Assembly: GCA_002238825.1 (NCBI GenBank)
Contig: MPNC01000002.1
Span: 239,180-303,179, forward strand
Length of the DNA stretch: 64,000 nt
Source of the DNA: SAR202 cluster bacterium bin87
GTDB taxonomy: Bacteria; Chloroflexota; Dehalococcoidia; Lucifugimonadales; UBA3495
Direction of reading: 5' to 3'
Shown here: piece after piece, positions 8,502 to 13,220 of the stretch
Layout of the letters: the number at the start of each line of letters is the position of its first letter
How positions within the stretch are numbered: the first letter of the stretch is position 1
Position numbers and translations under genes: made by a program
The notes under the pieces: generated by a model
The model's database searches: none
What the model saw: the letters and a program-made list of their open reading frames with translations, nothing else
Told to the model about the DNA's origin: nothing

Positions 8502-9116
8502 TTACGGCGCCAGCGCATCGGTCACGCCGATCATGCTGTCACGGCTCACCAACGCGGCCAGTTCCTCCTCGCTCATGCCCTCGGTTCCAGCAGGCCGGCG
8601 CGGCAGTACCAGGTAGCGCAGGTCAGCGGTACTGTCGAGGACGCGCACCTCGGCATCCGCGGGCGGCGCGGCGCCAAACTCCGCCATCACCCCGCGCGGG
8701 TCGCGCACGGCGCGGGCCCGGTAGGCCAGGCTCTTGTACCAGTCCGGCGGACGGCCGAGCAACATCCGGGGGTAGCAGGAACACAGGGTGCAGACCACCA
8801 TGTTGTGAACATCGTCCGTGTTCTCCACCACCGTCAGATGCGGGGTCTCGGCCGGGATCTCGATGCCCATCTCCGCCAGGGCGGAGCGTGAATCTGCCAG
8901 CAGGCGCGCCTTGAACCCAGCGTCAACCCAGGCGCGAGCGACGACTCGCGCGCCGTCGGCCGGCGTGCGACCGTCCATCAGGTTTACCTGGCGCCGCACT
9001 TCATCGTCCGTGAGCAAGCCTTTCTCGGCGAGCAGAGCTTCAATTGCCACCGAGCGCAGCGCGACCTCGCTCATAGGCTCGTCGTGGATGTGATCGACAA
9101 CATGGGTTGCGGTCAT
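8502..9116 (-). CDS. Nitrile hydratase alpha subunit, cobalt type (or thiocyanate hydrolase gamma)
   Basis: A 204-residue protein with the metal claw 'VCTLCSCY' (Cys109, Cys112, Ser113, Cys114). The Thr in CTLCSC marks the Co(III) type; iron enzymes have CSLCSC. 'PPDWYKSLAYRARAVRDPRGVM' follows the family alignment (PPDWYKS, YRARAVR). In nitrile hydratases the second and third cysteines are oxidised to bind cobalt, and the enzyme hydrates nitriles to amides. Because the beta subunit here is split into two genes, as in thiocyanate hydrolase, a thiocyanate or cyanate-like substrate is also possible. It is the last gene of a six-gene run; GGAGAGG precedes the start. Confidence 0.9.
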   Translation of the reverse strand: MTATHVVDHIHDEPMSEVALRSVAIEALLAEKGLLTDDEVRRQVNLMDGRTPADGARVVARAWVDAGFKARLLADSRSALAEMGIEIPAETPHLTVVENTDDVHNMVVCTLCSCYPRMLLGRPPDWYKSLAYRARAVRDPRGVMAEFGAAPPADAEVRVLDSTADLRYLVLPRRPAGTEGMSEEELAALVSRDSMIGVTDALAP

Positions 9117-9201: not shown

Positions 9202-10305
9202 CTAATTGTGACAGCCCCTTGCCTCGATCTCCCAAACCGCCTCCACCTTTCCGTCGCGTATGCCGATAAAACGATCCCACCGGCTTACCATGGCGTCCTG
9301 CTGGCCGGGTAGCAGCACAACCTGGTCACCAACCTCCAGTTCGGCTCCCTCCGCCGCTTGGAACACGGTGCGGTCGGTGTCCATATCGACCGCTTCGACC
9401 CCGGGGCGACCCTCCACTCGAGGCAATCCCTTCATGCCTCCCACGGCGCGAGCGCCGGCATCGCCTATCGCCGTTCCCGGACGCGGGACGCTGATAATCG
9501 AAGACAGCACTTTGCCGGCCAGATGGAAATCCTCCATGTACTCGTATGAGGTTTCCATGACCAGGTAAGATCCACCCTGGATTTCGGTAACCTCGGGCAT
9601 GTCTCCGGCGATGTCGTAGCTCCAGGTTTCGCCCGTCGATACGATTTCAACCGGCAGTCCGTCGGAGATCATGGCTTCCCTGAGGTCCAGAACCGGCTGG
9701 ATGAGGCGGTGAGCTTCGGTAGCCCGATCCTCCAGATCCCCAGAGGGTTCCGCCATCATCTGGTGGCTCATCACGCCCTTCAGCGAAAGTCCGGGCAGCG
9801 AATCAATCAATCGGGCCAGAGACAAGCCGCCGTCAACTTCCTGCACCCCGCAACGGACCAGCCCGGTTTCCTGCTCGATGACCACGCCCAGGTTTACGCC
9901 CTGGGCGGTGGCAGCATGGGAAAGGTCGCGGGCGTTCGTTTCGTTTTCGCAGGCCACCAGGATCTCGGCCTGGTCCGCCAGGGCGCAGAGCCGGTCGATC
10001 TTGGGTGGCGCAACCACCTCGCTGGTGACGAAAACGCTGGCCACTCCACCCTGCACCATAACCTCGGCCTCGGCAACCTTGGCGGCGCACACGCCGCCGA
10101 TGGTGCCGCCGCGCTGGATCTGCCGCAGCGCCAGGGCCGGGCTCTTGTGGTTCTTGCTGTGTCCCCGCAACTTGCTGTGCCGGTCTCCGTAGAAATCCGC
10201 GATCACATCCATGTTGTGGTCCAGCGCATCCATGTCCAGGATCAGGCATGGAGTATCCAGTTGCCCAACCGGAGTGCCGGGTTGGGGTTCATACGCTTGC
10301 GGCAT
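9202..10305 (-). CDS. D-threonine aldolase/D-serine dehydratase (DSD1)-like PLP protein, lysine kept
   Basis: A 367-residue fold-type III (alanine racemase-like) PLP protein. 'LDTPCLILDMDALDHN' opens the barrel and 'LRGHSKNHK' carries Lys51 where RPHAKTHK holds the PLP lysine in the family. 'HQMMAEPSGDLEDR' and 'STGETWSYDIAG' are later cofactor-phosphate regions. In the C-terminal beta domain the metal pair His-x-Cys/Asp of the family is replaced by Gln335-x-Asp337 ('LLPGQQDAMVS'). Family enzymes cleave or dehydrate beta-hydroxy D-amino acids with PLP and a divalent metal. Here the altered metal site makes the reaction uncertain. It lies between the alpha subunit gene (85-bp gap) and a degenerate paralogue (79-bp gap). 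Confidence 0.82.
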   Translation of the reverse strand: MPQAYEPQPGTPVGQLDTPCLILDMDALDHNMDVIADFYGDRHSKLRGHSKNHKSPALALRQIQRGGTIGGVCAAKVAEAEVMVQGGVASVFVTSEVVAPPKIDRLCALADQAEILVACENETNARDLSHAATAQGVNLGVVIEQETGLVRCGVQEVDGGLSLARLIDSLPGLSLKGVMSHQMMAEPSGDLEDRATEAHRLIQPVLDLREAMISDGLPVEIVSTGETWSYDIAGDMPEVTEIQGGSYLVMETSYEYMEDFHLAGKVLSSIISVPRPGTAIGDAGARAVGGMKGLPRVEGRPGVEAVDMDTDRTVFQAAEGAELEVGDQVVLLPGQQDAMVSRWDRFIGIRDGKVEAVWEIEARGCHN

Positions 10306-10384: not shown

Positions 10385-11560
10385 CTATCCCAATTGCCCC
10401 CGGCCGGAAACCCGCCAATACCCCACCAGCTTGCCATCTCGTACGGCGCGGATATAGTCATACTGATTGACGCACAGTGCCAGGTTGTACGGAACCAGGT
10501 GCACCTTGTCATTGGGCATCAACTGGTCGGTGGCCGGCCCCTCCAAATCCAGGATGCCGTGCTCCGCGCTGAACCTGGAGGCGACGGCCCCCTCGAACGC
10601 CTCCAGAACGGGTACGCCGAAATCAGGCCCGGTGGTCTTGTGACCGGCGTCCACCACTGCCCGGCCCGCCACGGGATGGCTGATGACCGTGGCCAGAACA
10701 CTGGCCGCCGGCTGTAATTCCGGGCGAATGCGCCGGGTTTCCATGTCCATCAAGGGGTACACTCCCGCCTGTACCTCGGTGATGCCCGCCAATTGGCAGA
10801 CGATGTCATAGTTGTAGGTGCTGCCCGCACTCACCTTTGAGACTTCAATGCCGGCCTGCTCCAGCGCGCCGCGCGTGTCCAGAATCGGCTGCAACCGGCG
10901 GCGCGTTTCGGCCTCCAGTTCCGCCCGATCCGTTATGGGCAACGGGCCTTCGTAGGTCATTATCCCTTCGAAGGTCAACCCGGGCGCACCGGCAACCGTT
11001 TGCGCTAGGACAACCGCATCCTGCACGGACGCCACACCGCCAAACCCGTACCCGGCGTCCATGTCCACCAACACGCCCAGAGTGGCGCCAGCGGCCTGCG
11101 CGGCCTCGGATAGATCCTGGACGTTGCGGGGGTTGTCGACGGCCACGCTCAACGTGATCCGGCCGGCCAGGTCGACCAGTCGGCTGATCTTGGCGGAGGT
11201 GATCACCCGCCCCGCTATCAGTATGTCGTCAATGGCGCCGGAAGGCGACGCCGCCCCATTATCGGCGGCGGTGTCTTCGCCGGCGGCGGCAAATGCCTCG
11301 GCTTCCGCCAGTGAGCTGACCGCCACGCCGCCGGTGCTGCCCGCTGCGGACAGCTGGAACTGCACGATTTCAGGGCAGCCATGACACGAAACATGTGGGC
11401 GAACCGAGACGCGTCCGGCGCTGGATCCACCGTCGGAACCGCCAATAGCGTTGTGCAGGACCGCGATGTTCTGCTCCATTATCCCCAGGTCAACCACCAG
11501 GGCCGGCGTATCCAGTTCCTCTGCGGGGGAGCCAATGGCCTGAAATATCGGTCGCTCCAC
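10385..11560 (-). CDS. DSD1/D-threonine aldolase-like paralogue lacking the PLP lysine
   Basis: A 391-residue protein with the same fold: 'LDTPALVVDLGIMEQN', 'LTFEGIMTYEG', 'SAGSTYNYDIV', 'VDAGHKTTG' and a C-terminal 'NQYDYIRAVRDGKLVGYW' that matches the neighbour. But the PLP-lysine block reads 'VRPHVSCHGCP': Ser58 stands where Lys is expected, and the second Lys is Gly61. The C-terminal metal ligands are Asn359 and Ala361. The frame is intact across about 1.2 kb, so it is kept, not decaying. It may be a non-PLP partner of the neighbouring protein or a new activity. GTG start with AGAGGT upstream. A low-complexity insert lies near residues 93-110. Confidence 0.78.
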   Translation of the reverse strand: MERPIFQAIGSPAEELDTPALVVDLGIMEQNIAVLHNAIGGSDGGSSAGRVSVRPHVSCHGCPEIVQFQLSAAGSTGGVAVSSLAEAEAFAAAGEDTAADNGAASPSGAIDDILIAGRVITSAKISRLVDLAGRITLSVAVDNPRNVQDLSEAAQAAGATLGVLVDMDAGYGFGGVASVQDAVVLAQTVAGAPGLTFEGIMTYEGPLPITDRAELEAETRRRLQPILDTRGALEQAGIEVSKVSAGSTYNYDIVCQLAGITEVQAGVYPLMDMETRRIRPELQPAASVLATVISHPVAGRAVVDAGHKTTGPDFGVPVLEAFEGAVASRFSAEHGILDLEGPATDQLMPNDKVHLVPYNLALCVNQYDYIRAVRDGKLVGYWRVSGRGQLG

Positions 11561-11724: not shown

Positions 11725-12024
11725 TCAGGCGGGTTCGAGCCAGTGCTGGTAAACGTCGACGAGCAGGGTATCTGCCGGATCGCCGGCGTAGTCCGGCCAC
11801 AGATCCGTTTGCTGCAACCGTATGCGATACAGCGGCTGACGGGGCAGGCCATCGCCTCCGTGGGCCAACGTCTCCGGATTGGGAAAGACCCCGCACAGCG
11901 CGTCAACCGTGCCGGTATGTCCCTGGATATAGGCCGGCGTGCGGAAGTGGTGCGCCGGCGATCCGACGCGGATACGGACGGACGCCCCATCAGGATAGCG
12001 AACAGTTTCGGCCGGTGTCGTCAT
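11725..12024 (-). CDS. Nitrile hydratase beta subunit, C-terminal half (SH3-like) as separate protein
   Basis: A 99-residue protein. 'FRTPAYIQGHTGTVDALCGVFPNPE' (read as RTPAYIQGHTGTV and GVFPNPE), 'PLYRIRLQQTDLW' and 'LLVDVYQHWLEP' align with the C-terminal SH3-like domain of nitrile hydratase beta (NHase_ASH3: R-x-P-x-Y-x-x-G-x-x-G, Y-x-V-x-F, D-x-x-x-x-Y-L-E). It should dock onto the alpha subunit around the cobalt site. The start ATG shares its A with the stop of the N-terminal-half gene (TGATG), so the two halves are translationally coupled. In thiocyanate hydrolase the equivalent halves are also separate subunits. Confidence 0.85.
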   Translation of the reverse strand: MTTPAETVRYPDGASVRIRVGSPAHHFRTPAYIQGHTGTVDALCGVFPNPETLAHGGDGLPRQPLYRIRLQQTDLWPDYAGDPADTLLVDVYQHWLEPA

Positions 12025-12326
12025 CAGAGCCCCTGTGCCCGCAACTCGGCGGTTTTGGCGTCGATCTCCTCGCCGGTGAGGATGCCCTTCTCGATCAGCA
12101 GTAACTCCAGGGCGGCGGTCCACTTTTCGTAGTACGACAGTGCTTCGTAGCGTTCCGGAGGAAGGCTTTCGATGGCGCGGCGCATCTCGTCGGTCGTGCG
12201 GATGCCCTGCTGGCCGAGAACCTGGTGTACGGCGTCGACACGCCGTTCCCAATCGCTGTACTCGTGCTCGGAGCGGTCAATGGGCGTGTCGTCGGGCCAT
12301 CCGCCACGATCGTGTGCTGCAGGCAT
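12024..12326 (-). CDS. Nitrile hydratase beta subunit, N-terminal half as separate protein
   Basis: A 100-residue helical protein. 'DWERRVDAVHQVLGQQGI', 'RRAIESLPPERYEALSYYEKWTAALE' (read as RRAIESLPP, SYYEKW) and 'LLIEKGILTGEEI' follow the N-terminal helical domain of nitrile hydratase beta. Nitrile hydratase activator (P14K) proteins are homologous to this half, so it could also act as the cobalt chaperone; no other activator gene is present. The start has AGGAG upstream and is 4 bases after the deacetylase stop; its stop overlaps the C-terminal-half start by one base. Confidence 0.82.
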   Translation of the reverse strand: MPAAHDRGGWPDDTPIDRSEHEYSDWERRVDAVHQVLGQQGIRTTDEMRRAIESLPPERYEALSYYEKWTAALELLLIEKGILTGEEIDAKTAELRAQGL

Positions 12327-12330
12327 GGTC

Positions 12331-13149
12331 CTACGCTCCTTTTTCCCACATCGTCGCCACGTCCACTGAACGCATGAAGCGAACGCCGGGGAAGGTCTTG
12401 ATGTACTCAATCAGGCGCTCCAGCATGAGCAGGCGCCCCGGCCGCCCGATGTACTGCGGGTGCATGGTGAGGTTGAAGCAGCGACCATAGCGGTACATGC
12501 CACGGAATTCGGCCGCCCAGCTTTCAAACACCTCGTCGGGGTTCCGCATGGGTCCGAGACGGTTTGCAGAGGGGGCGTAGGCGAAGTGCGGAGCATCGTC
12601 CAGTAGCCAATGGATGGGCAACTCAACCAGGTTGCGCGGCGGGTCGCCGCCCTGCACCAGGTACGGCGCGTCGTCGCCCATCAGGCTGCTGTCGTACTGA
12701 AAATTGTGCTTCGCGAGCAGATCCAGCGACACCGGGCTCAGTTCCCAGCTGGGCGAACGATAGCCGACCGGCGCATCACCGGTGAGCTCTCCCAGGATGC
12801 TGATGCCCTTGACCAGCACTTCCTCTTCCTTCTCGGGCGTCATGGTAGCCGGCGGCTCGTGGATATAGCCGTGGTGGGCCACCTCGTGCCCGCGCCCGGC
12901 GATTTCGCGCACCAGGTCGGGGTGGGTTTCGGCCACGTAACCGGGGATGTAGAAGCTGCCCGGGATGCCCTGGGCGTCCAGTATGTCCAGTATGCGCGGC
13001 GTGGCCACGCTGGGGCCATATTCTGCCATGGACAGCAGGCTGGGGTAGTTGATGAAATCGGGGTTCCGATTCAGCCAGGAGGTGATGCCGTCCACGTCAA
13101 ATGTGATGAGGGCAACGCAGCGAATGTCGTCGGGCCAAATTCCGGCCAT
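12331..13149 (-). CDS. Polysaccharide deacetylase family protein (cyclic imidase/PgdA-like)
   Basis: A 272-residue NodB-fold hydrolase. 'LITFDVDGITSW' holds the first Asp pair, 'GHEVAHHGYIHEPP' the two metal His, 'GYRSPSWELS' motif 3 and 'LTMHPQYIGRPGR' the late His. The TFDVDG and RSPSWE forms are those of the HP0310 (PgdA)/cyclic imide hydrolase branch, whose members hydrolyse cyclic imides, allantoin-like rings or N-acetyl groups. The start is set by AGGAGG. As first gene of the nitrile-hydratase run, ring-amide or imide hydrolysis fits the context better than peptidoglycan work; this is inference. No signal peptide, so it is cytoplasmic. Confidence 0.85.
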   Translation of the reverse strand: MAGIWPDDIRCVALITFDVDGITSWLNRNPDFINYPSLLSMAEYGPSVATPRILDILDAQGIPGSFYIPGYVAETHPDLVREIAGRGHEVAHHGYIHEPPATMTPEKEEEVLVKGISILGELTGDAPVGYRSPSWELSPVSLDLLAKHNFQYDSSLMGDDAPYLVQGGDPPRNLVELPIHWLLDDAPHFAYAPSANRLGPMRNPDEVFESWAAEFRGMYRYGRCFNLTMHPQYIGRPGRLLMLERLIEYIKTFPGVRFMRSVDVATMWEKGA

Positions 13150-13220
13150 TGTGCTCCTCCTGTGTAACTTGTGGGCGGTGGCAGTTCGTTCCGACCGGTC
13201 CGTACGGCGTGACAACCGGG

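Follow-up and report, generated by a model that had tools for sequence, protein, structure and literature searches.

Two genes that lie side by side on the minus strand of the window (the whole 64,000-nucleotide stretch of DNA that was analysed), here named A and B, encode paralogues that share 30% identity with each other and about 30–35% each with the D-threonine aldolase/BhcC/DSD1 family (Table 1). The reading frame of A is intact, and its product contains the Pfam domains Ala_racemase_N (PF01168, 53.3 bits) and D-ser_dehydrat (PF14031, 52 bits), each above its cut-off. The best solved relatives, 6QKB (BhcC), 4V15 (AxDTA) and 7DIB, align with A over its full length, and a single-chain AlphaFold2 model of A (pLDDT 91.7) matches 4v15 with a Z-score of 47.6 and an rmsd of 1.6 over 364 aligned residues; the corresponding model of B (pLDDT 92.9) gives a Z-score of 45.9 and an rmsd of 1.9 over 363. 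Neither protein falls within the BhcC equivalog NF045642, as A scores 191.7 and B 244.6 bits against an NCBIfam cut-off of 690 bits. Family-based annotation would name A an amino-acid aldolase or racemase.

Table 1. Genes and sequence features of the A–B locus (positions within the window)
Feature	Position	Strand	Description
Gene A	10385..11560	(-)	391 aa, GTG start; PLP-less paralogue with the DSD1/D-threonine aldolase fold; proposed non-catalytic loop donor
A block R54-P-H-V-S58-C-H-G61	11378..11401	(-)	PLP-lysine block of the family (RPHxKxHK) with both lysines replaced
A loop D304-A-G306-H-K308-T309	10634..10651	(-)	AxDTA 293–298, of which 295–298 reach the active site of the partner; D, G and K identical in all A
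A loop S331-A332-E333-H334	10559..10570	(-)	AxDTA 320–323, within the partner-reaching loop 319–323; invariant in 66/66 A
A N359-L-A361	10478..10486	(-)	In place of the metal ligands H347-x-D349 of AxDTA
Gene B	9202..10305	(-)	367 aa; lysine-bearing paralogue; proposed PLP-binding catalytic subunit
B K51-N-H-K54	10144..10155	(-)	Predicted PLP lysine K51; invariant in 69/69 B
B loop D282-A-G-A-R286-A287	9445..9462	(-)	Partner-facing loop; conserved lysine lost
B loop D309-T-D-R312	9370..9381	(-)	Partner-facing S[AD]EH loop lost
B Q335-Q336-D337	9295..9303	(-)	Altered metal site: Gln in place of His, Asp retained
Nitrile hydratase beta subunit	11725..12326	(-)	Split between two overlapping ORFs, 12326-12024 (N half) and 12024-11725 (C half)
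Nitrile hydratase alpha subunit	8502..9116	(-)	CTLCSC motif

These observations bear out the original prediction that A is a DSD1/D-threonine aldolase paralogue with an intact frame and a well-kept fold, and the losses that it described are likewise seen in the alignment. The block RPHAKAHK of AxDTA corresponds to RPHVSCHG in A, with S58 and G61 in the positions of the PLP lysine and the second lysine, and N359 and A361 align with the metal ligands H347 and D349. A has the barrel and the beta-domain of the DSD1/D-threonine aldolase family, but neither the PLP lysine nor the metal ligands. A lysine elsewhere at the PLP site would contradict this loss; no such substitute was found among the lysines common to most of the 66 A orthologues checked, namely K124, K308, K352 and K377 (36/66), of which K124 is common to nearly the whole family and K308 is located in the loop predicted to serve the partner.

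The lysine-bearing homologue that had been noticed next to A is B, with K51 and K54. B has the PLP lysine and the arginine of the family (K51 and R151, equivalent to Arg157 of AxDTA; 69/69 B), but lacks the His-x-Asp metal ligands, with the His present in only 5/69 B, and the partner-reaching loops. The loss of the metal histidine and of these loops had been overlooked in the original prediction, as had the nitrile hydratase operon in which the two genes are embedded. B is also without the AxDTA base H193, has a His at the position of AxDTA Tyr187 in 69/69 sequences and has an invariant Glu, E226. Within B the first metal ligand varies and the Asp does not: the metal site is H-[QE]-D in a few lineages (L068, L072, L101, L102 and L116) and Q-Q-D or Y-Q-D in the others.

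Complementary conservation of A and B

In AxDTA the active site is formed mainly by the barrel of one chain, in which PLP is carried by Lys59 and contacted by Gln81, Arg157, Tyr187, Thr233, Gln249, Ser252 and Tyr260, the base is proposed to be His193 and the metal ligands are His347 and Asp349; the site is completed by loops 295–298 and 319–323 from the beta-domain of the second protomer (PMC4401734). Tyr187 stacks on PLP, and His is found at that position in alanine racemase (PMC4401734). This assignment of residues to chains makes the idea that A is a partner of B testable: A should have drifted in its own site and kept its loops, and B should have done the reverse. The partner-facing role of the loops in A and B is carried over from AxDTA, the numbering of which is used below.

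Homologues were found in 125 of the 197 genomes of the order, which are mostly MAGs, and 84 neighbourhoods were retrieved. The sorted set comprises 66 A and 69 B, together with 13 canonical singles or references, and includes 66 genome-matched A/B pairs. Six loop positions, G295, K297, S320, A321, E322 and H323 (G306, K308, S331, A332, E333 and H334 in the A of the window), are each conserved in 66/66 A, whereas position 59 is variable (S, E, G, T, H, D, N and others) and is K in only 3/66. The other own-site positions of A (157, 187, 249, 252, 260, 347 and 349) vary likewise, the two metal-site positions being D/N/E/S and G/A/S. B displays the opposite pattern: K59 and R157 are found in 69/69 and D349 in 68/69 (the remaining sequence has X), while K297 is present in only 18/69 and positions 320–323 are variable.

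The contrast in conservation rank between A and B is 0.83, compared with 0.00 ± 0.13 for random column sets, of which 0/20,000 were as extreme (again 0/20,000 with the test limited to columns conserved in the canonical singles), and mean identity is 37% in the barrel and 46% in the beta-domain for A, as opposed to 55% and 49% for B, in which the barrel is the slower part; these column and identity tests rely on sequence weighting or column ranking and are uncorrected for shared ancestry. As a control, a tandem pair of canonical-type paralogues (L082) has kept the lysine and the loops in both copies.

In the genus of the window, the median dN/dS is 0.17 for A (range 0.11–0.22) and 0.08 for B, the evolutionary rate of A being about double that of B. 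A is subject to purifying selection and is not decaying, and its conserved part consists mainly of the residues predicted to face the partner. S58 and G61, the conservation of which had been suggested as a check, are fixed within the genus and variable in the order as a whole (S, E, G, T, H, D, N, Q), like the rest of the site of A, so that no new site is conserved; the cofactor-free activity that was one of the two readings originally offered for A is unsupported, and was rejected as a candidate. The accompanying rule that random change at these positions would indicate a decaying gene is misleading here because they do vary in a gene that purifying selection maintains, and A as a pseudogene is contradicted by both dN/dS and conservation. 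The other reading, in which A serves its neighbour as a partner, draws strong support from the complementary conservation and, as set out below, from the retention of the two genes in tandem, their joint absence and their retention when unlinked.

Linkage, genomic setting and origin of the pair

Across dozens of families, A and B are co-directional, with A first and usually some tens of bases between them, and a B was found for all 66 A. Two families (f35 and f18) and one genus (g5) seemed to have B only and were considered as A-less, but this was overturned by a very divergent A directly upstream of B. The divergent A proteins are mostly 22–27% identical to that of the window, two of them with short local matches of 32–36%; their barrel motifs are gone, and D-x-G-x-K...D and SAEH are kept. 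In two genomes (G010 and G033) the genes lie far apart on one contig and in a third (G045) on different contigs, and both persist. The A of one genome (G009, L064) is broken into two ORFs, with open frames in all the other inspected genomes. A long ORF that was considered as a fusion (L072) proved to be merely a frame extended upstream.

Two single-contig genomes from the genus of the window (G130 and G193, 97–99% complete) gave no match to A, B or the B alignment. Outside the order, G201 alone had another B of this kind, with A adjacent (L118); among 400 genomes of the phylum searched at E 1e-75, only a protein of canonical type (L137) was detected outside the order. Unpaired extra B-like genes occur in families f38 and f32 (L105, L106 and L138), and each of these genomes has the pair elsewhere.

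In the window, the A–B pair is situated between the genes for the C half of the nitrile hydratase beta subunit and for the alpha subunit, a placement seen in the genus of the window only. In G130 the nitrile hydratase operon is without the pair (L144, 5660-4388; deacetylase, beta-N, beta-C, alpha), with alpha directly after beta-C, and in other genera nitrile hydratase is located away from the pair. A functional tie between the pair and nitrile hydratase was rejected on these grounds. The placement is probably secondary and most likely reflects a move of the pair into the operon in the genus of the window; a pathway shared by the two is possible. The neighbours of the pair that are conserved throughout the order, as named by eye (TsaD-like, methyltransferase, thioredoxin-reductase-like and enolase-superfamily proteins), look like general genes and gave no hint of a substrate.

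The operon itself has some features of its own. The two halves of the beta subunit overlap by ATGA in a three-subunit arrangement, and related genera (L145 and L146) have both halves and alpha as well. In G193 (L143) alpha is present and neither beta half lies within about 5 kb on either side, which suggests that this nitrile hydratase locus is rearranged. Adjoining the beta gene of the window on the same strand is a gene (12331-13215 (-)) whose product belongs to the polysaccharide-deacetylase family and distantly resembles PuuE/allantoinase, with a score of 82 bits where the cut-off is 424.6; in L144 and L145, too, the deacetylase and beta genes lie close together.

A quick maximum-likelihood tree places A and B in two clades, each with 100% SH-aLRT support, and the canonical proteins outside them. 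Parsimony on this tree requires two changes of the lysine, which may be read as two losses within A, because three A (L058, L059 and L062) retain it. The same three have also retained R157, Y187, T233, Q249, S252 and Y260 of their own site, and B keeps K297 and E322-H323 in 3/3 of the genomes with a lysine-bearing A, as opposed to 2/63 of the others (Fisher p = 0.0002, uncorrected for ancestry, with the three lysine-bearing A representing two neighbouring lineages). That the second site is either kept or decayed as a unit is expected if the barrel of A faces the loops of B. It is likely that an obligate heterodimer, made up of a PLP subunit and a pseudo-subunit that completes the active site, arose a single time from a fold-type III PLP enzyme and has been stable across this Chloroflexota order, with intermediates that still have the second site intact and with the barrel site of the pseudo-subunit almost erased in some lineages. 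A third type of paralogue (L107, in G011) has the PLP lysine and the DxGxK/SEHG loops, with the metal site replaced (QGT), and branches alone in the tree, close to the base of the A and B clades.

A putative composite active site and its relation to known systems

Our results point to an obligate heterodimer of A and B, a fold-type III PLP enzyme with one composite active site; we assign this reading a probability of roughly 0.8. In such an enzyme, the (alpha/beta)8 barrel of B would bind PLP through K51, with R151, H181, T227, Q243, S246 and Y254 around the cofactor, while the beta-domain loops of A (G306-H-K308-T309 and S331-A-E-H334) would cross the dimer interface and complete the site of B. 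The reciprocal site, formed by the barrel of A and the loops of B, would be dead and free to drift, leaving one working site per heterodimer. A would be the non-catalytic, site-completing subunit, with its origin in the duplication of a homodimeric D-threonine aldolase-like ancestor. We infer that A and B physically associate and that B binds PLP, and likewise any activity of the pair; A alone is probably without activity, and B without A likewise inactive.

By analogy with the family, a D-amino acid would be the default guess for the substrate of the pair. Since B has neither the AxDTA base H193 nor, usually, the metal histidine, it is doubtful that the pair uses the canonical metal-assisted aldolase mechanism. 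When the His in place of Tyr187 and the invariant E226 are also taken into account, the label D-threonine aldolase is not safe for the pair.

The evidence on pairing would all fit equally well with A as a regulatory or stabilising subunit that activates B through folding or allostery, in the manner of the trypanosome prozymes, with its loops outside catalysis, and there is precedent for a dead paralogue that activates its partner through oligomerisation (PMC3663545, PMC5201418). Such a role is unlikely, since it gives no account of the six partner-site loop residues that are found in 66/66 A and drift in B. An A that functions independently of B, as a homodimeric cofactor-free enzyme or ligand-binding protein, would agree with its intact fold and confident model, with purifying selection and with the few genomes in which the genes are unlinked. 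This is quite improbable in view of the variation of its own-pocket residues among orthologues, their erosion in large part in the most divergent A, the absence of both genes together from G130 and G193 and the presence of B alongside 66/66 A. Finally, the loss of catalytic residues and a rate about twice that of B could be taken to mean that A is a decaying tandem duplicate retained by chance beside B; this is scarcely credible for a gene with a dN/dS of 0.11–0.22, well below 1, with open frames in all inspected genomes but one, with six loop residues invariant across dozens of genera and with retention when unlinked.

If the heterodimeric reading is true, the two copies of a formerly homodimeric enzyme share one active site and are mutually dependent across a bacterial order, and many stages in the decay of the unused site are still visible. 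The transition from homodimer to obligate heteromer, a long-standing question, would then be directly testable in one family. The order concerned, of mostly uncultivated Chloroflexota, appears to have a fixed pair of unlike copies. For annotators, a family-level function assigned to A, or to B by itself, would be misleading.

The fold and the domain order of A and B are those of AxDTA (4V15), BhcC (6QKB) and chicken D-serine dehydratase (3ANU). AxDTA forms a homodimer whose two sites are equivalent, whereas here one paralogue has the PLP site and the other the partner-facing loops. Antizyme inhibitor is described as a regulatory homologue of ornithine decarboxylase, a fold-type III PLP enzyme; it works through antizyme binding, in contrast to the site completion proposed for A, and is not known to complete an ornithine decarboxylase active site. 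In the trypanosomatid prozymes (AdoMetDC prozyme; DHSc/DHSp), a dead paralogue is required for the activity of its partner (PMC3663545, PMC5201418). These are not fold-type III PLP enzymes and their activation is described as an effect of oligomerisation, whereas the conservation in A and B points to the direct donation of residues. Of the related subjects looked for in the SAR202 pangenome paper, only enolase-superfamily racemases are treated there (PMC6946804), and within the open-access literature, which was the scope of our search, no heterodimeric or pseudo-subunit member was found in fold-type III or the DSD1 family.

The closest likeness is to LCB1 and LCB2. Serine palmitoyltransferase, which these two subunits form, belongs to fold type I. 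LCB2 has the PLP lysine, while LCB1 is without it and has other residues that are predicted to be catalytic; the single-site heterodimer is a working hypothesis (PMC3794620). The lysine is in one paralogue and other site residues come from the other, as the complementary conservation of A and B also indicates, so that the two systems would work alike and are not homologous: LCB1/LCB2 has an unrelated fold and is membrane-bound and eukaryotic, whereas A and B are fold-type III, apparently soluble and bacterial. The division of labour itself is known from LCB1/LCB2 and, more loosely, from the prozymes; its occurrence in fold-type III and the DSD1 family, as suggested here, would be new within the open-access literature.
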